Assembly: GCF_008016455.1 (NCBI RefSeq)
Contig: NZ_SAXU01000001.1
Coordinates: 186,001 to 250,000, forward strand
DNA length: 64,000 bases
From: Brachyspira aalborgi
GTDB lineage: Bacteria; Spirochaetota; Brachyspiria; Brachyspirales; Brachyspiraceae
Reading direction: 5' to 3'
A program made the translations under genes and the position numbers. A model generated the notes under the pieces. The model was not told where the DNA came from. It saw nothing but the letters and a program-made list of their open reading frames with translations, and made no database searches. Below, piece after piece: positions 9,141 through 63,428 of this stretch (within the stretch, counting starts at the first letter, position 1; every line of letters starts with the position of its first letter).

Positions 9141-9797
9141 ATGAATAAAATAATTATAGCTCCTTCAATATTGACTGCATCGTTTGGCAATTTGGAAAAA
9201 ATTATAAAAGAACTTGAAGAAGCTGGTTGCGATTATTTGCATTTGGATATAATGGACGGAGTATTTGTCCCTCAAATCACATTTGGAGCGAAAATTGTAG
9301 CCGATATAAAAAAAATAAGCAAAGTTCCTTTGGACGCTCATTTAATGATTGTTAATCCTGAAAATCATATAGACGATTTTGCAAAAGCTGGAGTTAATAT
9401 GATAAGCGTTCATTTTGAAAATAATATTCATTTGCATAAACTAATCATGCAAATAAAATCTCATAATATAAAAGCTGGAGTTGTTTTGAATCCTCATACG
9501 AGAGTCGAAAATATAGAGCCGATTATCGATTATATTGACAATATTCTTATAATGTCGGTTAATCCTGGATTTGGCGGGCAGAAATTTATCGAGAGTTCGA
9601 TTGAAAAAATTAAAAAAGCAAAAAATCTTATAGGAAATAGAGATATAATTTTATCGGTTGATGGCGGAATAAATTTAAATACTTGCGATAAAGTAATCGA
9701 AGCGGGAGCAAATTTTTTGGTTTCTGGAAGCGCAATAATAGAAAGCGAAGATAAAAAAGCGATTATAAATAGACTTAAAGGGAATAAAGAAAAATAG
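9141..9797 (+). CDS. rpe: Ribulose-phosphate 3-epimerase
   Basis: 218 residues, a TIM-barrel enzyme interconverting ribulose 5-phosphate and xylulose 5-phosphate in the pentose phosphate pathway. Visible signatures are APSILTASFGNL at the N-terminus, HLDIMDGVFVPQITFG (residues 34-49), DAHLMI, MSVNPGFGGQKF and VDGGIN/SGSAI near the C-terminus, covering the metal ligands and phosphate-binding loop. AAGGA lies 8 bases before the ATG. The nearby deoB and rpiB genes belong to the same pentose chemistry but are not in the same operon. Confidence 0.97.
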   Translation: MNKIIIAPSILTASFGNLEKIIKELEEAGCDYLHLDIMDGVFVPQITFGAKIVADIKKISKVPLDAHLMIVNPENHIDDFAKAGVNMISVHFENNIHLHKLIMQIKSHNIKAGVVLNPHTRVENIEPIIDYIDNILIMSVNPGFGGQKFIESSIEKIKKAKNLIGNRDIILSVDGGINLNTCDKVIEAGANFLVSGSAIIESEDKKAIINRLKGNKEK

Positions 9798-11162: not shown

Positions 11163-12149
11163 TTAATTTGAAATTGAAGCGCCGATTTTTTTATCGAAGT
11201 CTTTTCTTATTTTGTCAAATTTTTCTCTGTTTTTAACTATTGCGCTATTCATTTTATTAATCGCTCTTTGATTTGCGCCGTATAAAGCCAAAGATTTTCT
11301 TGCATAAGGAGTCATTTCAACTTTTTTTTCAGGGTCTAAATTTATTAATTTAACTATCGCGTTATAATAGCCTTCGTTAGCTGCAAGCATTCTGTATCTT
11401 TTCATTTCCATATCGTTAATATATTTTTCGTTATATTCGTTATTTAAAGCCGAAACCAAATTAACATCTTCCTGCGAAATATTTTCCATTGCATTAATAA
11501 GATTTTCTATAGTAGAAACGGAGTCGGCTCTTGAAATTTCTTCTCCTCTATTCAAAAATATTCTCGGGTCGCTTTCAGAATTCTGTTTAATTATTTTAGA
11601 TTTATCGTCCATAGTTTTTATAAAGGCTTCTTTAGGAGAGAGATTTTTTTTATCTTCGTCCGTTATTATATCAACTGCGCCTTCTGACAATAAAACAATG
11701 CTTGAACCGTCTTCTGCAAATGCAACTTCAAATTCCGTGCCTCTAACTATCGCCGAAGTGTTTGCCGTGTGAATTTCCGCAATATTTCCTGCATTTTTTT
11801 GAATATTAACTTTAATATATCCTTCAAGTAAAGACAATGAAATTTTATCGTTATTATTTTTATAAATAGAAGGATTTACAAGCAAAATTGCATTTTCATA
11901 AACCGTTATATTTCCTATTTTGTCTCCGTTTTTAGATATAACAATTTCAACCTGACTATTGCTTGAAGTTTTTAATTTATATTCGCTATGAACTTCGCTT
12001 CCTCTAAACGCTCTTAAAGATTTGTCCGCTTTTTCTATAAACGCTGTTCCCGATATTCCCGTAATCTTAAAAGATGTCTCTTGAGAAAAAAGAAAATCGC
12101 TATTAAAAAGTATTAATATAGGCAGTAAAAATATTATAATTTTTTTCAT
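11163..12149 (-). CDS. Exported FecR-domain protein
   Basis: 328 residues with a signal peptide (MKKIIIFLLPILILFNSDFLFS). Residues ~30-165 form a FecR-like beta-rich domain (ISGTAFIEKADKSLRAFRGSEV; TANTSAIVRGTEFEVAFAEDG with LLSEGAVDI). The C-terminal half is helical and lysine-rich. Such proteins in spirochaetes are periplasmic, without the FecI/FecA partners of the classical iron-citrate system, and none is seen here. Ribosome-binding site AAGGAG 9 bases before the ATG. The gene is convergent with proA. Its function is unknown beyond the domain. Confidence 0.75.
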   Translation of the reverse strand: MKKIIIFLLPILILFNSDFLFSQETSFKITGISGTAFIEKADKSLRAFRGSEVHSEYKLKTSSNSQVEIVISKNGDKIGNITVYENAILLVNPSIYKNNNDKISLSLLEGYIKVNIQKNAGNIAEIHTANTSAIVRGTEFEVAFAEDGSSIVLLSEGAVDIITDEDKKNLSPKEAFIKTMDDKSKIIKQNSESDPRIFLNRGEEISRADSVSTIENLINAMENISQEDVNLVSALNNEYNEKYINDMEMKRYRMLAANEGYYNAIVKLINLDPEKKVEMTPYARKSLALYGANQRAINKMNSAIVKNREKFDKIRKDFDKKIGASISN

Positions 12150-12253: not shown

Positions 12254-12895
12254 TTAAATTTCTATCAACTCTATTTGCGGAAACTTAGGATATGCAAAAA
12301 TCAAATCCAAATTAAAACCGTTCATTTTTATTACAATATCCTTATAAGCTTCCGCATTTTTTATATCGCAGCTTACACTTATAAGATAAGAATTATCTAA
12401 AAAAAATGTTGCAAAAAATAAATCGTCAGAATTGTATATCGCTCTTTCTTCTAAATCTATTTCAATAGAATCTTTTATATCGAAAATCTTTTTTCCGAAA
12501 TTTTTTATATAAGCTTCTTTTAAAGTCCATAATGTAAAAAAATCGATTTCTAATTTACGAGAAGATTTTAAATATTTATATTCGTTAAAAGAAAAATATT
12601 CTTCGGCTATTCCTAAAAAATTTCTTTTTTTAATAAACTCTACATCTATTCCTACGGATTTATCGGACATTGCAACCGACAATAAATCTTTTGAATGCGA
12701 ACCGTTAAAAAATATTTTGTTTTCGCCCGAAAAATAAGGCTTTCCATTTTCGCCACTTTCTATAATTAAATCTGTGGGTTTAGAATAATATTTTATTGCC
12801 ATATCTTTAGAAATATCTTCTATATTTGAGTTTTCATTAAAAATATATTTTAAGTATATCGTTTGAATTTTATCTTTTTTATTAGTTTTTTCCAA
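12254..12895 (-). CDS. Sfp-type 4'-phosphopantetheinyl transferase
   Basis: About 213 residues. SVGIDVEFIKKRN (magnesium-binding Asp and Glu) and WTLKEAYIKNFGKKI are the two signature motifs of the Sfp/AcpS superfamily, which transfers phosphopantetheine from CoA to carrier proteins. The Sfp size suggests a broad-specificity activator rather than AcpS. No polyketide or peptide synthetase is nearby. Two TTG starts are possible; the one at 12895 is preferred because AAGGA lies 8 bases before it, against only 2 bases for the TTG at 12901. Confidence 0.85.
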   Translation of the reverse strand: MEKTNKKDKIQTIYLKYIFNENSNIEDISKDMAIKYYSKPTDLIIESGENGKPYFSGENKIFFNGSHSKDLLSVAMSDKSVGIDVEFIKKRNFLGIAEEYFSFNEYKYLKSSRKLEIDFFTLWTLKEAYIKNFGKKIFDIKDSIEIDLEERAIYNSDDLFFATFFLDNSYLISVSCDIKNAEAYKDIVIKMNGFNLDLIFAYPKFPQIELIEI

Positions 12896-17413: not shown

Positions 17414-17460
17414 ATGTTAACATAATAAATGTTGACATATTTTTTTAAATATTGTATAAT
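17414..17460 (+). promoter_or_regulatory. Promoter of repeat-leader locus 1, with tandem ATGTT(A/G)ACAT
   Basis: Consensus TTGACA (17432-17437), 17-base spacer, TATAAT (17455-17460). The palindrome ATGTTAACAT (17414-17423) is followed 15 bases on by ATGTTGACAT (17429-17438), which covers the -35 box, so a regulator may bind here. Confidence 0.8.
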
Positions 17461-17492
17461 TTATTCATTAAAAATTAAGGTAGGAATTTTAT

Positions 17493-17555
17493 ATGTTTAG
17501 CTCGTCACTACACTACACTACACTACACTACACTACACTACACGCCGTATTATAA
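17493..17555 (+). CDS. Leader ORF of locus 1 (20 codons in present frame)
   Basis: ATG at 17493 with AGGA 7 bases before it and a consensus promoter 33 bases upstream. It reads MFSSS and then enters the CACTA repeat, giving Leu-His-Tyr-Thr-Thr repeats, and stops at TAA 17553-17555 inside the loop of the terminator-like hairpin. The +1 frame past the repeat (from 17542) is open for 39 codons through the hairpin and the RBS to a TGA at 17659-17661 that overlaps the ATG of the membrane-protein gene. Gain of one repeat or loss of two would join them. Confidence 0.75.
   Translation: MFSSSLHYTTLHYTTLHAVL
17506..17543 (+). repeat. Pentanucleotide repeat (CACTA)7.6
   Basis: Seven perfect CACTA units plus CAC. 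All five codons generated (CAC, TAC, ACT, ACA, CTA) are sense codons, so the tract is translatable in every frame on this strand, whereas the opposite strand would meet TAG. Expected to vary by slipped-strand mispairing. Confidence 0.97.
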
Positions 17556-17574
17556 ATTTTTTCGGCGATTTTTT
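17543..17574 (+). terminator. Terminator-like hairpin inside the 5' leader of locus 1
   Basis: CGCCG (17543-17547) pairs with CGGCG (17563-17567), 15-base loop, followed by A and six T. The stem starts on the last base of the repeat. It lies between promoter and gene, so it would act as an attenuator. Confidence 0.7.
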
Positions 17575-17657
17575 CATTGCAAAACTAAAGAATTATTTGA
17601 AACATTTAAACGCTTTCTCTTGCGTCTACAAAAATTAACTTTTAAGGAGATAACTCT

Positions 17658-19670
17658 ATGATATTTAAAAACAAAAAATTATTTCTAAAAATTTATATTC
17701 CGTTTGTGATTATTATTTCTATTGCTCTAATAGTTTTACAAATTCTTGGTTCTAAAAAGAGAATTGGTTATTTAACCGATTTTAATTTGAATATTGAAAG
17801 AACGCTAAAGTTAAATAATTTAGAAAACATTATGACAAATTATATTATAGATGACGAATTGGATGAAGAAGGCATAGAAAATTATATATTAACTAATGAA
17901 AATATAACAAATTATGTTCATCAATTTCGAATAAGATATTATGATAAAATTTTTAGGAATAACGATATTTACGGAGTTTATCCTGATTTATCAAACTTGC
18001 CTGATTATATGGAAAATGCGGAAATGGATGGAAACGGAAGTCCTTACGGAAATTTTATTTCTGACAAAAAAACGATTGAAGAAGAAAAAATTGATAATAT
18101 TAACTATATTTTGAAAATAAAAATAAATATTATTAGATATGTTATATATCTTATTCTAATATTATTAATAATTTACACGAAAATTTATTTTGAAAATATA
18201 AAAATATTTTTTAATGGCATTATTACAGTAATAAAGATAAAATCAAATGTGGATATAAAATTAAATTTAAGTATTATAATGATATTAGGCTATTTATATT
18301 TAATATTGCCTTATATGATTTTTCTTATAACTTGGGTAAAATATTTTATATCTATACCAAGTTTAATTTTAGTTATTATAGCTACCTACTTTACAATTAA
18401 AGATACAAAAAAACACTATAACATATCATATAATTTTAATTTATTTAGTTTGATATTATTATTTATTATTATTACAATATGGGTTATTATATTAGGAGTT
18501 GGCAATATATGTTTGCCAAGCGGAGATACTATTTATGGCAGATATGCTGTTTTTAAAGACTTAATAGAATTTCCTTTTCCAATTATCTATCCTGAAAATG
18601 GATACGGATTTGTATATTATTTCGCTCATTGGATTATTCCAGCGATATTTGGAAAGATATTTAATTATAATGTTGCAAATATTATTCTAATTTTATGGAC
18701 ATCTTTACCATTATTTTTAACTTTGATATTATTGTCAATATATTTAAATAAAATAAAAACCAAACAAATATTTATAATCTTTTTAATATTTATTTTATTT
18801 GTTCCTCCAAGTCTTATTTTTCATAAGGAAGGCAATTTTGGAAAAGGATTATTGACTGTTTTTGCTACGAGTTATATTAATATATTTAATCTTTTCAATC
18901 AAAGCCCAGCTATATATTTAATGTCGGTATTATTTTTACTTCAAAAAAATTCATTTAATTTTGCTTTTTTAGGATTATCCATTATGCTATATTCACCTTA
19001 TGCGACATTAGGAATTATACCTTTTATGATTGCAAAATCTATAATAGAAATAAGCGCAGATAAAAATGAATTAAAAAATATATTTAGCGTTAGCAATATA
19101 TTATCTTCAATATCAATATTTCCAATACTATTATTATATTTTTCATCAACAGCTACTAAATCCGATGGATTAAGATTTGTATTAACGGATTATCCCGTAT
19201 TATATCTAATAGAGCTATTTATGATTAAATTTGGAATTATATTTATTTTATTATTTAAATATAATAAGAAAAATTATTTGTTTTATGTTTCATTATTTAC
19301 TCTTATAGCGGTTTCATTAATACAATATTCGGGCGACCATAATTTCCATAGAACTAATATAACGGCATTATTCTTTTTAAGTATTTTTTTAACGGATTAT
19401 TTTATAAATCATTTTAATGAAAATTCTTTAAGAAAATATTTATTATTAATAATATTTATGATGGGTATATTTAGAGGTTATATTGAACTTGACCAAATAG
19501 ATTTTTATTTAAAACAAATTAAGACATTTGGAAAAGTAAATATGGAAGATATGGCGGTTAATAAAACATTTAATACTAAAAATAATAGTTGGCAGTTGAG
19601 AACAATAACATGTCAAGATATAGACAATTCAATATTTTTTAAATACATAGCAAAGGATAATAAAAAATGA
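17658..19670 (+). CDS. Polytopic membrane protein, possible GT-C-like glycan enzyme
   Basis: 670 residues: one span near residues 9-29, an extracytoplasmic segment to about 155, then roughly a dozen hydrophobic spans. GNICLPSGDTIYGRY and PENGYGFVYYFAHW lie at the start of the second block, similar in placement to the loop motifs of GT-C glycosyltransferases or related polymer-handling proteins, but I do not recognise a defined family. AAGGAG precedes the ATG by 8 bases. Its stop overlaps the ATG of the GT2 gene (ATGA), so the two are coupled. Role in surface glycan synthesis is inferred from the partner. Expression is probably controlled by the repeat leader. Confidence 0.65.
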   Translation: MIFKNKKLFLKIYIPFVIIISIALIVLQILGSKKRIGYLTDFNLNIERTLKLNNLENIMTNYIIDDELDEEGIENYILTNENITNYVHQFRIRYYDKIFRNNDIYGVYPDLSNLPDYMENAEMDGNGSPYGNFISDKKTIEEEKIDNINYILKIKINIIRYVIYLILILLIIYTKIYFENIKIFFNGIITVIKIKSNVDIKLNLSIIMILGYLYLILPYMIFLITWVKYFISIPSLILVIIATYFTIKDTKKHYNISYNFNLFSLILLFIIITIWVIILGVGNICLPSGDTIYGRYAVFKDLIEFPFPIIYPENGYGFVYYFAHWIIPAIFGKIFNYNVANIILILWTSLPLFLTLILLSIYLNKIKTKQIFIIFLIFILFVPPSLIFHKEGNFGKGLLTVFATSYINIFNLFNQSPAIYLMSVLFLLQKNSFNFAFLGLSIMLYSPYATLGIIPFMIAKSIIEISADKNELKNIFSVSNILSSISIFPILLLYFSSTATKSDGLRFVLTDYPVLYLIELFMIKFGIIFILLFKYNKKNYLFYVSLFTLIAVSLIQYSGDHNFHRTNITALFFLSIFLTDYFINHFNENSLRKYLLLIIFMMGIFRGYIELDQIDFYLKQIKTFGKVNMEDMAVNKTFNTKNNSWQLRTITCQDIDNSIFFKYIAKDNKK

Positions 19671-20560
19671 AAATAGCCGCTATTATTCCTTGCTATAATG
19701 AAGAGCTTACAATTAAACAAGTTATTTACGATATTCAAAAATATTGTCCGAAATGCGAAATATATGTTTTCGATAATAACAGTTCCGACAATTCTTACAA
19801 CATTGCAAAAGAAACGGGAGCGATAGTTAAAAAAGTTATGTATCAAGGAAAAGGCGAGGTTGTTAGAAACGCTTTTTCTATAATAGATGCCGATATCTAT
19901 ATATTGATAGACGGAGACGGAGAATGTGACGCTTCGGCTATTCCTTCATTAATCGATTATTTAATAAATGAAGATTTAGATATGATTACGGTAATTCGTA
20001 AAGCTGGCAAATATAGAAGAGGGCATTCATTTGGAAATAAAATGATAACGACTTTTGCCAAAATATTATTCGGTAAAAATTGCAATGATATTTTAAGCGG
20101 ATATAGAATTTTTTCTAAAAAATTCGTAAAAACATTTCCTGCGAATTCGAGAGGCTTTGAAATAGAAACGGAGCTTACAATTTTTGCCTTACAAATGCGT
20201 CTTCCTATAGGCGAGATGGAAGCGGAATATAAAAGTCGCCCTGAAGGTTCTTTTTCTAAACTAAATACTTTCAAAGATGGATTTAGAATATTAGGATTAA
20301 TAATATATTTACTTATGAGCGAAAGACCTTTATTATTTTGGTGGATTATAGCTTTAATATTCGCTTTATTTGGATTATATTTTGGACTTCCTATAGTTAT
20401 TTCATTTTTTGAAACAGGCATAGTTCCCGTAGCGACTTCGGTTTTATCTTCTGGATTTATGCTTTTATCGGGCATATCTATAATTACGGGACTTATTATG
20501 AACGCTATAGGCAGAGTAATAAGCGAGAATAGAAGATTTAAATATAATTCTGTTAAGTGA
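19667..20560 (+). CDS. GT2-family (DPM1/ArnC-like) glycosyltransferase
   Basis: 297 residues. AAIIPCYNEELTIKQVI at the N-terminus, FDNNSSDNS, and the metal-binding DGDGECD at 82-88 define a GT2 (GT-A fold) transferase of the dolichyl/polyprenyl-phosphate sugar type; LSGYRIFSKKFVKTFP and RGFEIETEL are family-typical acceptor-side motifs. Two spans at ~residues 218-285 anchor it in the inner membrane. It likely makes a lipid-linked sugar used by the upstream membrane protein, with which it shares an ATGA overlap. Confidence 0.9.
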   Translation: MKIAAIIPCYNEELTIKQVIYDIQKYCPKCEIYVFDNNSSDNSYNIAKETGAIVKKVMYQGKGEVVRNAFSIIDADIYILIDGDGECDASAIPSLIDYLINEDLDMITVIRKAGKYRRGHSFGNKMITTFAKILFGKNCNDILSGYRIFSKKFVKTFPANSRGFEIETELTIFALQMRLPIGEMEAEYKSRPEGSFSKLNTFKDGFRILGLIIYLLMSERPLLFWWIIALIFALFGLYFGLPIVISFFETGIVPVATSVLSSGFMLLSGISIITGLIMNAIGRVISENRRFKYNSVK

Positions 20561-20600: not shown

Positions 20601-21491
20601 TTAAAGTTTTTTTATTTCGTCTATTGTTAAGCCTGTGATTTCGCTTATAAGGTTAATGTCCAGGTTTTTAGTTTTCATTGATTTTGCCATTGAAATTTGT
20701 TCTGCAATTCTACCTTCTTTAAGTCCTTCAAGTTTTCCTTCGTCAAAACCGTCTTCTCTTTCTCTTCTTAACATCATTTTTTGCCCAACTAAAAACGCTT
20801 CTCTAGCCGCATACGCTCGCATCATTTTATCGTCAGAAGTAAATTTTCTGTATTCTTCAATAACTTTACTCATAATTTGGTTTTCCTCCTTTAATTCTTC
20901 TTCGATTAATTCTAAATTATCGCTTGTAAAAAATTTCATCCAACTTAATAATCTGTTTTTCTTTAATTCCTCTTTAGTTGAATTTTTAATTATCTCAATA
21001 AATCTTTTTACTTCTAAAATATGAATTTGAATTAAGTCTAAACTTATATTTAAATCTTTTGTATCAATCAATTTAAAGCATCTGTGAGCTTTTCCTTTAT
21101 CTCCAAATTTTAAATTAAAATCAAGTAAATTAATGCTAATAATTTTTTGAACATTGCTATAATTTTCTCCTTCCTTAACTTCATTGACAACATTTTTTGA
21201 AATATAATAAAAAATTCTTTTTAGAAAATCCATATTTCCGCATAATTGAAATTCTATAATCACAGTTTCATTATTTTTTGTCTTCGCCTTAATATCAATT
21301 ATCGACTCTTTAAGTTCAATATTTTCTGACAAATTGAATGGGTCGATTATTTCTAAATCTTTAACTTCCTCAAAATTGAATTCTCTTAAAGTGGAATTTA
21401 CTAAATCGGTTAATAAGTCTTCGTTTCCATTTTTGCCGAGTAAATATCGTGCAAATAAGTCGCTTAATTTGTATACTTCTTCATGTTTCAT
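20601..21491 (-). CDS. Rpn-family PD-(D/E)XK nuclease (transposase-like)
   Basis: 296 residues. The N-terminal half has the Rpn/PDDEXK_2 pattern: DLFARYLLGKNGNEDLLTDLVNSTL, then ELKESIIDIKAKTKNNETVIIEFQ, which supplies the D-x(n)-E-x-Q catalytic core. The C-terminal part (EGKLEGLKEGRIAEQISMAKSMK) is the usual helical tail. These proteins are recombination-promoting nucleases widespread and multicopy in Brachyspira-like genomes. No inverted repeats flank it. A consensus promoter puts the transcript start at the ATG, so the mRNA appears leaderless. Confidence 0.88.
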   Translation of the reverse strand: MKHEEVYKLSDLFARYLLGKNGNEDLLTDLVNSTLREFNFEEVKDLEIIDPFNLSENIELKESIIDIKAKTKNNETVIIEFQLCGNMDFLKRIFYYISKNVVNEVKEGENYSNVQKIISINLLDFNLKFGDKGKAHRCFKLIDTKDLNISLDLIQIHILEVKRFIEIIKNSTKEELKKNRLLSWMKFFTSDNLELIEEELKEENQIMSKVIEEYRKFTSDDKMMRAYAAREAFLVGQKMMLRREREDGFDEGKLEGLKEGRIAEQISMAKSMKTKNLDINLISEITGLTIDEIKKL

Positions 21492-26433: not shown

Positions 26434-26508
26434 ATGCTTGATTTTGTAATGAATAAAATAAATTTGCGCTCTTGCAATTCAATTCAATTCAATTCAATTC
26501 AAGCATAA
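26434..26508 (+). CDS. Leader ORF of locus 2 (24 codons in present frame)
   Basis: Reads MLDFVMNKINLRSC, then the AATTC repeat (Asn-Ser-Ile-Gln-Phe), then Ala and TAA at 26506-26508, 14 bases before the hairpin. No Shine-Dalgarno is present; the position at +1 suggests a leaderless mRNA (an in-frame ATG at 26449 is the alternative). Past the repeat the +1 frame (from 26501) is open for 29 codons through the hairpin to TGA at 26588-26590, overlapping the FkbM gene's ATG. Gain of one unit or loss of two would connect them. Confidence 0.6.
   Translation: MLDFVMNKINLRSCNSIQFNSIQA
26476..26502 (+). repeat. Pentanucleotide repeat (AATTC)5.4
   Basis: Five perfect AATTC units plus AA, the shortest of the four tracts. 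All codons produced (AAT, TCA, ATT, CAA, TTC) are sense; the complementary strand would meet TGA. Confidence 0.95.
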
Positions 26509-26586: not shown

Positions 26587-27630
26587 ATGACTTCAAAAAC
26601 TATTGATAATATCGTTTGGTTTATTCCATCTAGAAAATTAAGAGATAATATCAGAGATTATATGAATTTTATATATAATAAAATTAATGAAATAAACAAA
26701 CCAATTCGAGCTTGGGATAGGTATCTTTTTATTCTTTTTAGAGAAGATATAAAAAATGACGCTAATTTTTATCAAAAATATTTGAATTTAATTAAAAATT
26801 TAGATAAAGAAAGCGTAGAAATTGTTATTGGAATATTATCCAAAATTACAAATTATAATAATATTGAAGACGATATTTATTTTTCGCGTAAAGAATCGAA
26901 AAGATTAAACGATTTATACGAAGAATTTAATAACAAAATAATAAAAATAAATGAAGAATTATTTATATACGATAAATATATTTTACCAAAAAACCAATTT
27001 GAGATTGAAGCTTTTTACGGAAAATACGGAATGGATTATGTAAAAAATTTAAATCAAGTTAAAAATAAAAATATAATTGATGCGGGAGCTTATATCGGAG
27101 ATTCTGCAATATTATTTTCCGATTATACAGATAAAAATGTTTACAGTTTTGAACCGTTTTTGCATCACTATAATATGATGTTGAAAACTATAGAATTAAA
27201 TAAAAAGAATAATATTATTCCCGTGAATATGGCTTTAGGCGATAGCAATAAAGAATTATCTCTATATTCAAACGGAGATTTAAATATGGGACTTTCAATA
27301 GAGAGAAATTCTGAACAATCCGATATTAATTGCATTGAGAATAAAGTAAAAATGGTAACTCTCGATAGTTATGTGAAAGAAAATAATATTGAAGTCGGAT
27401 TAATAAAAACGGATTTGGAAGGTTTTGAACAGCCGTTTTTGAAAGGAGCGATTGAGACTATAAAAGAACAAAAGCCCGTTTTAATAATAAGCATATATCA
27501 TAATTATAGCGACTTTTTTGAAATAAAACCAATGATAGAGAATTTAAATTTAGGTTATAAGTTTAAGATAATAGAACCTAAAGCACCAGAGAGTGCTATA
27601 GTTTCTACGCTTTTACTTGCAGAAGTATAA
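26587..27630 (+). CDS. FkbM-family SAM-dependent methyltransferase
   Basis: 347 residues. The C-terminal ~200 hold the FkbM Rossmann domain: IIDAGAYIGDSAILFSDY (SAM-binding), VYSFEPFLHHYNMMLKTI, NMALGD, MVTLDSY, LIKTDLEGFEQPFLKGA and PVLIISIYHN. The N-terminal ~130 residues are charged and helical. FkbM enzymes O-methylate sugars, and in surface-glycan settings methylate capping residues; the acceptor is unknown here. AGGAG precedes the ATG by 6 bases. The repeat leader upstream probably makes its expression variable. A short gap follows before an unrelated promoter-less small gene. Confidence 0.9.
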   Translation: MTSKTIDNIVWFIPSRKLRDNIRDYMNFIYNKINEINKPIRAWDRYLFILFREDIKNDANFYQKYLNLIKNLDKESVEIVIGILSKITNYNNIEDDIYFSRKESKRLNDLYEEFNNKIIKINEELFIYDKYILPKNQFEIEAFYGKYGMDYVKNLNQVKNKNIIDAGAYIGDSAILFSDYTDKNVYSFEPFLHHYNMMLKTIELNKKNNIIPVNMALGDSNKELSLYSNGDLNMGLSIERNSEQSDINCIENKVKMVTLDSYVKENNIEVGLIKTDLEGFEQPFLKGAIETIKEQKPVLIISIYHNYSDFFEIKPMIENLNLGYKFKIIEPKAPESAIVSTLLLAEV

Positions 27631-41341: not shown

Positions 41342-41443
41342 TTATAGGATAGGATAGGATAGGATAGGATAGGATAGGATAGGATAGGATAGGATAGGAT
41401 AGGATAGGATAGGATACCTACCGCATAAGTTTATTAAAGTCAT
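41342..41443 (-). CDS. Leader ORF of locus 3 (33 codons in present frame)
   Basis: ATG at 41443 with AAAGGAA 8-9 bases before it. It reads MTLINLCGRYP and then Ile-Leu-Ser-Tyr-Pro repeats from (ATCCT)14, and stops at TAA 41344-41342 directly after the repeat. The +1 frame beyond (AAA from 41343) is open for 44 codons through the hairpin and RBS, ending in a TGA (41211-41209) that overlaps bitA's ATG. Gain of one unit or loss of two would place the leader in that frame. Confidence 0.78.
   Translation of the reverse strand: MTLINLCGRYPILSYPILSYPILSYPILSYPIL
41346..41415 (-). repeat. Pentanucleotide repeat (ATCCT)14
   Basis: Fourteen perfect copies, 70 bases (AGGAT on the + strand), the longest tract in the window. 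The codons ATC, CTA, TCC, TAT and CCT are all sense; the opposite strand would meet TAG. Confidence 0.98.
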
Positions 41444-50620: not shown

Positions 50621-51016
50621 TTATTTTTTAGTAATATCTAAAGTTAATGGACTTTCTCCTTCTTGTCCCATTATTAAATTTCCTTGAGTATCGCTAATAA
50701 AAACAAGAGTAAATTTTCCACTACTGCTACTGTCACTATACGAAGCGGTATAAGTCGTGTCGCTAACTCTTGTTACAGAAGACGAAGGAATTGTAGTATC
50801 GCCACTCTCTCCTTTTATAGTAAAAGAACCGTCAGTATTTATTGTAAGTAAATGCATTTCAGTTTGCACTAGTTTTCCATACCAATTACCAGCATAATAA
50901 GATAATGTTCTTCCTTCTGTTCCTGTTTTATTCTTATTATCGCAACTTATTGAAAATAGAGCGATTAAAGATAAGATAATTAATAATAGATAAAAATTTT
51001 TTCTTTGTTCTTTCAT
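50621..51016 (-). CDS. Small lipoprotein, repeat-leader locus 4
   Basis: 131 residues from ATG 51016 (AGGAG 9 bases before it). A hydrophobic signal ending in lipobox FSISC (Cys25) is followed by a charged linker (DNKNKTGTEG) and a beta-rich domain (AGNWYGKLVQTEMHLLTINTDGSFTIKGES; SGKFTLVFISDTQGNLIMGQEG) like small lipocalin/META-type lipoproteins. Its reading frame is also open upstream for 70 codons through the hairpin to the repeat, so a start further up would be possible in frame but without a usual RBS. Variable expression through the leader is inferred. Confidence 0.75.
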   Translation of the reverse strand: MKEQRKNFYLLLIILSLIALFSISCDNKNKTGTEGRTLSYYAGNWYGKLVQTEMHLLTINTDGSFTIKGESGDTTIPSSSVTRVSDTTYTASYSDSSSSGKFTLVFISDTQGNLIMGQEGESPLTLDITKK

Positions 51017-51200: not shown

Positions 51201-51305
51201 TTATTGTTTAGAAGATAATAATAGCGTTCTGTTCTGTTCTGTTCTGTTCTGTTCTGTTCTGTTCTGTTCTGTTCTGTTCTGTTCTAGATTATTCAAGTTA
51301 AACAT
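51201..51305 (-). CDS. Leader ORF of locus 4 (34 codons in present frame)
   Basis: ATG at 51305, or TTG at 51296 in the same frame with AAGG 9 bases before it. It reads MFNLNNLEQN and then Arg-Thr-Glu-Gln-Asn repeats, and stops at TAA 51203-51201, before the hairpin. The +1 frame (from 51226) is open for 70 codons through the hairpin and straight into the lipoprotein in its own frame, unlike the ATGA overlap of the other three loci. Gain of one repeat or loss of two would join them. A 7-bp hairpin (AACCGAA/TTCGGTT, 51333-51311) precedes the start. Confidence 0.65.
   Translation of the reverse strand: MFNLNNLEQNRTEQNRTEQNRTEQNRTLLLSSKQ
51226..51285 (-). repeat. Pentanucleotide repeat (AGAAC)12
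   Basis: Twelve perfect AGAAC units, 60 bases (GTTCT on the + strand). Codons AGA, ACA, GAA, CAG, AAC are all sense. Here the complementary strand is also free of stops. Confidence 0.97.
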
Positions 51306-62015: not shown

Positions 62016-63428
62016 TCAATTAGAAATATCCAACTTTTCAAGCTTTTTAATATTTGTAATGTTTTTAGGCGCTTTTTTAATTTTATTTAAACTTAAATCT
62101 ATTTCTTTTAAATTAATCAAACTGCATAATTCTTTTGGGAATTCTTTAAATTTATTATCCGCTAAATAAATTGTGTTCAATTTTTTAAGTTTATTAATAT
62201 TTTTAGGTAATTTCTTTAATTTATTACGGCTTGCATCCAAATCTTTTAATTTATTTAAATTAGATATTTTCTCACTTAAATTTTTGATTTTATTATCGGA
62301 TATATTTAATACTTTTAAATTTTTTAAATTATATAATTTTTCTGGCAATTCTGTTAAATTATTAAAAGATAAATCAAGCTCCTTTAACTTTTTAAGTTTT
62401 TCTATATCTTTGGGTAAATTATTTAATTTATTACCGCTTAAATCGAGTTTTCGTAAATTAATTAAATTGCATAATTCTTTTGGGAATTCCGCTAAATCCT
62501 TATTAGAAAAATCAAGCTCTTTTAAGTTCTTAAGTTTTGCCATATTTTTAGGAAATATTTTTATTTCATTCCTATCTATATCCAATATTTCTAAATTTTC
62601 CAAATCGCATATTCCTTCTGGCAAACTTTTTAATTTATTATCTCTTAAATCAAGTTCTTTCAATTTTTTTAATTTAGCTATATCTTTGGGTAAATTATTT
62701 AATTTATTACCGCTTAAATCGAGTTTTCGTAAATTAATTAAATTGCATAATTCTTCTGGCAACTCTTTTAAATTGTTAAAATATGAATTAAGTTCTTTCA
62801 ATTTTTTAAGCTTTGCTATATTTCTGGGTAATATTCTTATTTTATTGCAATTTATATTCAGTATTTCTAAATTTTCTAAATTGCCTATTTCATCTGGTAA
62901 ACTTTTTAATCTACTACTGTCTAATTTAAGTTCCTTCAAATTTCTTAATTTAGATATATCTTTTGGCAGTTTATCAATCTCATCAGAGCTAAACTCAAGA
63001 TATTCTAAATTAACTAAATCGCATAATTCTTTTGGAAATTCCGTAAGGTTATTATGGGCTAAACGAACTCCTTTTAATTTTTTCAATTTATTTATTCCTT
63101 CTGACAACTTGTCAATTTTAACTCCCCGTTTTGAGCCGACTATAATAAGTTCTTCTAAATTTTTCAAATTATATATTTCTTCGGGAATGGTTTCTCTATT
63201 TATTATAATTAATTTTTTAATATTTTTAAGTTTAAAAAATTCTTTTGGAATATAATCATAATTAATAGTAAAATAAGTGAGATTTAATAATTTTTCTTTT
63301 GTAATCTTTTTATAATCTACTATTTTATAATCTCCTAAATATTTTATACCGTTGTCTTTAATCCATTTTTTAATTATTTCAAAATCTTTATCAGTCAAAG
63401 TTTCTTTTTTAATTGTCGTATTTTTCAT
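62016..63428 (-). CDS. Leucine-rich-repeat protein
   Basis: 470 residues, nearly all made of about 18 LRR units of 23 residues (LxxLKELDLSxNxLxxLPxxI), the LPxxI type found in bacterial and plant LRRs. A short N-terminal region (~1-60) precedes them. No signal peptide or membrane span is visible. An ~80-base block at 62402 recurs at 62678, 276 bases away (exactly four repeat units), so it was recently duplicated. AAGGA precedes the ATG by 9 bases. Function unknown; protein binding is assumed. Confidence 0.9.
   Translation of the reverse strand: MKNTTIKKETLTDKDFEIIKKWIKDNGIKYLGDYKIVDYKKITKEKLLNLTYFTINYDYIPKEFFKLKNIKKLIIINRETIPEEIYNLKNLEELIIVGSKRGVKIDKLSEGINKLKKLKGVRLAHNNLTEFPKELCDLVNLEYLEFSSDEIDKLPKDISKLRNLKELKLDSSRLKSLPDEIGNLENLEILNINCNKIRILPRNIAKLKKLKELNSYFNNLKELPEELCNLINLRKLDLSGNKLNNLPKDIAKLKKLKELDLRDNKLKSLPEGICDLENLEILDIDRNEIKIFPKNMAKLKNLKELDFSNKDLAEFPKELCNLINLRKLDLSGNKLNNLPKDIEKLKKLKELDLSFNNLTELPEKLYNLKNLKVLNISDNKIKNLSEKISNLNKLKDLDASRNKLKKLPKNINKLKKLNTIYLADNKFKEFPKELCSLINLKEIDLSLNKIKKAPKNITNIKKLEKLDISN

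Follow-up and report, generated by a model that had tools for sequence, protein, structure and literature searches.

A repeat-bearing leader ORF ahead of a putative glycan operon in Brachyspira aalborgi points to phase variation by a design that recurs across the genus

Results

Leader, hairpin and operon at the window locus

The DNA analysed here (the window) is a 64,000 nt stretch of the Brachyspira aalborgi genome (assembly GCF_008016455.1, contig NZ_SAXU01000001.1, positions 186,001 to 250,000 of the forward strand). On its plus strand a promoter, a short leader ORF with a pentanucleotide repeat and a terminator-like hairpin precede an operon. The sigma-70-type promoter, TTGACA-17-TATAAT (17432-17460), matches the consensus at 12 of 12 positions, and 5' of the leader ATG (17493-17495) stands the ribosome-binding site AAGGTAGGA (17477-17485), which was read directly and is kept in sister cassettes. 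Within the leader lies (CACTA)7.6 at 17506-17543, a 100% perfect repeat coding for Leu-His-Tyr-Thr-Thr. The locus holds, in other words, a non-triplet simple sequence repeat (SSR) in a leader ORF with a ribosome-binding site 3' of a promoter; this SSR is pure, is longer than expected by chance and, by the computed frames, shifts the frame of a translated-type leader.

Between leader and gene lies the hairpin (17543-17574), with arms CGCCG at 17543-17547 and CGGCG at 17563-17567 followed by an A and by T6 at 17569-17574. The fold amounts to -7.3 kcal/mol (shuffle z -2.6). It should be noted that a standard terminator scan did not call the hairpin at the window locus, its GC stem having only 5 bp and its loop 15 nt, and that such a hairpin is absent at several sister loci. 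The leader region gave no Rfam match.

In the present phase the leader (17493-17555) encodes the 20 aa peptide MFSSSLHYTTLHYTTLHAVL and stops with TAA at 17553-17555, inside the hairpin loop. With one more repeat unit it would encode 57 aa (17493-17661) and end at TGA 17659-17661, which overlaps the downstream ATG at 17658 as ATGA; this is the phase predicted to be ON. With two more units it would encode 51 aa (17493-17638), pass the hairpin and stop at TAA 17636-17638, 22 nt 5' of the coding sequence (CDS). The initial annotation had described the leader ATG with its ribosome-binding site, the repeat peptide, the stop at 17555 in the loop, the two alternative frames and the ATGA junctions of the operon, and all of this was reproduced exactly when the sequence was re-read and recomputed. 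Its statement that the hairpin is passed in two phases out of three is true of the window locus; most sister copies have a single phase that passes the hairpin or ends in ATGA.

The motif TTGCAAAA (window 17577-17584) was seen in 11 of 25 leaders and in 1 of 113 other upstream regions, a count in which many leaders are related and hence are non-independent events. A conserved leader peptide was ruled out, as by manual inspection the TTGCAAAA element falls in different frames in different leaders.

The first gene of the operon (17658-19670, plus strand) encodes a polytopic membrane protein of 670 aa, the putative phase-variable target, which belongs to a genus-wide paralogous family. The gene carries a good ribosome-binding site, TTAAGGAG, and overlaps the ATG (19667) of a GT2 glycosyltransferase gene (19667-20560, plus strand; Pfam PF00535, E 1.8e-17) as the second ATGA of the operon. 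The NCBIfam model nearest to the GT2 protein is TIGR04182 (AglJ) with 175.6 bits, below the cut-off of 325, and judged by its sequence this partner is of the polyprenyl-phosphate glycosyl type. The membrane protein has no match in Pfam, NCBIfam or PDB, and its single-sequence structure model (pLDDT 44) is too poor for fold comparison; the term glycan operon is thus a putative one, taken from the GT2 partner and from the targets of the sister loci. Directly 3' of the GT2 gene, on the opposite strand, lies a gene of a PD-(D/E)XK transposase family (20601-21491).

Repeat arrays across the genome

We collected SSRs of at least 20 bp from the window and 20 stretches of 20 kb, together 464 kb of the 2.5-Mb genome. 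This sample contained 20 pentamers, 4 heptamers (one of which is a low-complexity AT tract) and 1 dinucleotide, and no SSR of this length with a period of 3, 4, 6 or 8-11. As the spectrum is limited mostly to pentamers and heptamers, the array at the window locus is not a chance occurrence. Extrapolation from the 464 kb gives more than 100 arrays per genome. A comparable sample of 380 kb from four relatives held only two arrays, hence repeat expansion differs between species.

Three further putative switches lie in the window. (CAATT)5.6 (26475-26502, plus strand) is in a leader before an FkbM methyltransferase gene (26587-27630), and (TATCC)14.6 (41344-41416, minus strand) in a leader with its ATG at 41443 before a solute-binding protein gene (41212-40208); one additional unit leads to ATGA at both. 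(AGAAC)12 (51226-51285, minus strand; leader ATG 51305) precedes a lipoprotein-like gene with its ATG at 51016, and one additional unit brings this leader in frame into the CDS. The targets 3' of leaders, as found by Pfam, are PMT_2 mannosyltransferase, radical SAM/SPASM proteins, FkbM and other methyltransferases, polysaccharide pyruvyl transferase, GT11, PTS EIIC, an esterase and a solute-binding protein.

For each array the end of the leader was computed in all three repeat phases. At the majority of arrays lying outside genes, one phase leaves the leader open up to the downstream start codon. One phase ends exactly in ATGA at the window arrays 17506, 26475 and 41344 and at loci L009-L012, L014, L015, L017, L018 (where the joined gene is truncated), L032 (TTCAC) and L040 (CTCAT). 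Other leaders end a few codons past the start of the gene (L021, L022, L023 and L029) or continue into it in frame (window 51226, L027, L031 and L039), and some end 30-50 nt 5' of it, so ATGA is not obligatory. The remaining phases mostly end shortly past the array. Where the repeat unit contains a stop in one direction, the stop-free strand lies in the leader sense at all such leader-type loci. By a manual count, this genome has about 16 ATGA-type loci; a single one of them (L017) is in its ATGA phase at present, and 11 would need one more unit to reach it.

Seventeen arrays of the 464-kb sample were classed as leader-type, with classing and choice of start partly by hand. Among these a frame other than that of the CDS is open from array to CDS in about 10 of 17, against a background of 8% (binomial p 1e-7), this being the share of 88 cases in the same genome with a non-zero frame open over the 115 nt before a gene. 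An exact ATGA ending was found in 5 of the 17, compared with 0-3% of ordinary upstream regions (p 2e-5 at 2%); background frames both open and ending in ATGA amounted to none at 115 nt and 3% at 85 nt. Since ATGA starts are common in this genome (57% of genes), what carries information is that the frame is open in the right phase.

These frames also bear on whether repeat number might instead set DNA or RNA spacing, that is promoter or UTR length. Repeats in promoters and 5' UTRs are known to act in that way in other bacteria. At the window locus, however, the array sits 3' of both the promoter and the leader ATG, and a promoter-spacing mechanism is ruled out by its position within the leader ORF. 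As a spacing effect would not account for a non-CDS frame open to the gene far above background, for stop-free units or for a phase kept over different tails, we find such an effect very improbable.

Pentamer arrays were also observed at the 3' ends of FkbM, methyltransferase, epimerase and radical-SAM genes (L022:4906-4949, 9309-9380 and 11734-11775; L026:11575-11596 and 12758-12782; L034:3372-3439). They are followed by one common tail sequence, present in 8 copies in this genome and in none of 25 relatives. Depending on the phase, the C-terminus is a short stop, -S[SCR]N[VI], or a tail of the -[MI]FEY type that closes with AA, SA or TA; this last tail resembles the tmRNA tag of this genome, ADEYAIAA. 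It is conceivable, although we offer this as speculation, that these arrays encode a phase-variable degradation tail. A tandem array of another kind, with a period of 69/138/276 bp and leucine-rich-repeat-like by eye, lies in an ORF at window 62016-63428.

Related cassettes

The CACTA leader (MFSLxLHYTT...) occurs in about 12 near-identical dispersed copies, which have promoter and hairpin in common and stand ahead of different glycan genes. Their 3' half recurs in a sister cassette that has TACAA repeats (MSGCKFYNTIQ...). On this shared backbone the stem reads AGCCA/TGGCT in the TACAA and CGCCG/CGGCG in the CACTA cassette, two pairs being changed on both sides, and the copy at L088 has an intermediate stem; the stem is thus compensated. 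The distance from T-run to ATG is 62, 83, 89 or 95 nt, and 77 nt at L018 (the last determined by hand). All these tails are 2 modulo 3, open and ATGA-ending, before different genes. The exceptions are L016/L099, where a tail of 84 nt with a 1-nt insertion leaves no ATGA phase, and L013/L095, where the tail is 184 nt and the leader stops 37 nt short. Two CACTA cassettes at contig ends (L102 and L103; G000:C3 and C4), with 6.6 and 23.6 repeats, are without the 5' hairpin arm CGCCG, a reading that is uncertain because the assembly breaks there.

We lean towards the view that the leader ORFs are portable modules of promoter, repeat leader and hairpin, copied as a unit before unrelated surface genes. 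Repeat unit and stem would be exchanged freely, selection would keep the frame relation to ATGA, and the Brachyspira set of phase-variable loci would be among the largest for genome size.

Recurrence in Brachyspira

The membrane-protein family is present in 26 of 26 Brachyspira genomes. A tblastn survey gave 54 copies with a located start; in 33 of them an SSR of 16 bp or longer lies in the 300 nt 5' of that start, with units such as AAAC/AACA, AACAAGC, AACAC, CACTA, TACAA, TTCAC and others. A non-zero frame is open from array to gene in 29 of these 33 and takes the ATGA form in 23, and the ATGA-ending leader is kept with tetra-, penta- and heptamer units alike. In comparison, 6 of the 21 copies lacking an SSR have such a frame open over at least 90 nt (Fisher p 1e-5), a contrast that is supportive rather than exact, as the arrays are of unequal length and the criterion was not quite the same for the two sets. 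(AAAC)6 arrays are present in 17 of the 26 genomes but missing from the B. aalborgi genome studied here; the unit turns over and the design stays. Repeat number was compared between related genomes, B. aalborgi being represented by one strain, and at orthologous lipoprotein loci the array has 9.6, 19.2, 10.8 and 12.8 copies.

The CACTA cassettes are plainly duplicates of each other, as one would expect if the repeats were no switch but a family that has lately multiplied and leaves expression unaffected. We regard this as a most doubtful account of the whole, because unrelated leaders with other units show the same frame design, both in this genome and in the genus.

Possible roles of termination relief and translational coupling

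Hairpins of -4 kcal/mol or below with a T-rich tail were found at 60% of 15 leaders versus 19% of 54 background regions (Mann-Whitney p 4e-4), and several leaders have no convincing terminator. A terminator appears common at the leaders but not required. In five related genomes a CACTA leader with a clear, strong terminator-like hairpin precedes the orthologous lipoprotein gene, and in the four where the leader ATG lies within the locus, one phase passes the hairpin yet ends 30-50 nt short of the gene, which favours termination relief at this locus.

The closest published model is the pil1 locus of Streptococcus gallolyticus, where leaders are ON if they stop 4 nt ahead of the hairpin or within it (Danne et al. 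2014, PMC3894217). If the terminator alone mattered in Brachyspira too, the present phase of the window locus would already be ON and ATGA would be incidental. The hairpin with T6, conserved and compensated, and the lipoprotein leaders agree with such an attenuator. The CACTA array, however, abuts the hairpin, and in the sister copies the leader reaches at least the edge of the hairpin in every phase; at the window locus it stops within the hairpin or past it in all phases, never 28 nt or more before it as in an OFF state of the pil1 type. (At locus 41344 a phase stops about 74 nt ahead of its hairpin.) The published stop-distance rule, unlike in pil1 and pil3, therefore fails to separate the phases, and as it leaves no phase of the CACTA cassette OFF we give weight to coupling. 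An attenuator alone would also leave the 23 ATGA copies and the constant tail modulo 3 unexplained, and the terminator is missing from several leaders; we consider it unlikely.

Stop-start coupling could also act by itself, the hairpin being incidental and the untranslated leader of the OFF phase leaving the gene start unoccupied or the RNA open to Rho. This would fit ATGA as the commonest ending of the open phase, the ATGA junction between genes 1 and 2 of the operon and the open frame still kept in hairpin-less leaders. It would hardly explain why the stem is compensated between cassettes and why T-tailed hairpins are enriched, and the CDS has a good ribosome-binding site of its own. We find coupling by itself rather unlikely. 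Coupling through ATGA and termination relief are both likely to contribute.

Discussion

We suggest that the operon is subject to phase variation through a repeat-containing leader ORF, acting by translational coupling together with relief of termination, and give this reading a probability of roughly 0.78. The (CACTA)n array would be a slipped-strand switch within a short translated leader, and with its 5-base unit each gain or loss would alter the leader frame past the array. In one phase of three, the assembly plus one unit, ribosomes would cross the hairpin and T-run to the TGA overlapping the start of the membrane protein, so that transcription continues and the operon receives ribosomes; this is the predicted ON state. 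As assembled, the leader ends in the hairpin, 105 nt 5' of the gene, and for this phase OFF or low expression is predicted. The third phase, which passes the hairpin and stops 22 nt short, may be intermediate. The anatomy, the frames, the recurrence over genome and genus and the compensated stem are seen directly in the sequences; slippage in living cells, the levels in the ON and OFF states and the balance of coupling and antitermination are what we infer.

The initial annotation had proposed a phase-variable leader before a glycan operon, with hairpin passage as its key feature. The comparative data carry the first part well beyond this locus, and a phase-variable leader ahead of a probable glycan operon is well supported. 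The stress on the hairpin has to be corrected, since the feature recurring in unrelated leaders is one phase open to the downstream start, mostly as ATGA.

Phase variation by repeats in a leader is already known from pil1 and pil3, where the number of GCAGA repeats in a leader ORF sets the extent of leader translation (PMC3894217). As there, the pentanucleotide repeats of the window locus lie in an RBS-bearing leader ORF 3' of a promoter, followed by a stem-loop, which is a terminator in pil1 and pil3 and terminator-like here, and by a putative surface-structure operon. What is new is the spirochete setting, the scale, the portable cassette and the ATGA coupling: pil1 and pil3 are two pilus loci of a Gram-positive, whereas Brachyspira has many loci across a genus, tetra-, penta- and heptamer units, a dispersed cassette, mostly ATGA coupling, and a weaker or absent hairpin. 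In the collection of papers searched, none describes phase variation driven by repeats in Brachyspira.

The design also resembles the SSRs of Haemophilus influenzae lic and lex2, Neisseria and Campylobacter in its non-triplet unit, slippage, glycan or surface targets and one frame of three ON. SSRs of the H. influenzae type are usually within the coding sequence of the gene itself, whereas those of Brachyspira sit in a distinct ORF that precedes the gene and is joined to it through ATGA; in H. influenzae, lex2A, a small ORF with repeats, lies ahead of lex2B. With attenuation of the trp type the leaders would share the principle that leader translation decides terminator formation, but there is no sensing of amino acids, and mutation of the repeat DNA sets the outcome.

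The natural variants of the leader, which differ in repeats, stems and tails and include one natural frameshift, are suited for separating translational coupling from attenuation. If the switches are independent, one clone could show very many surface-sugar states, which would matter for antigen diversity, for sensitivity to phages and for vaccine work in Brachyspira.
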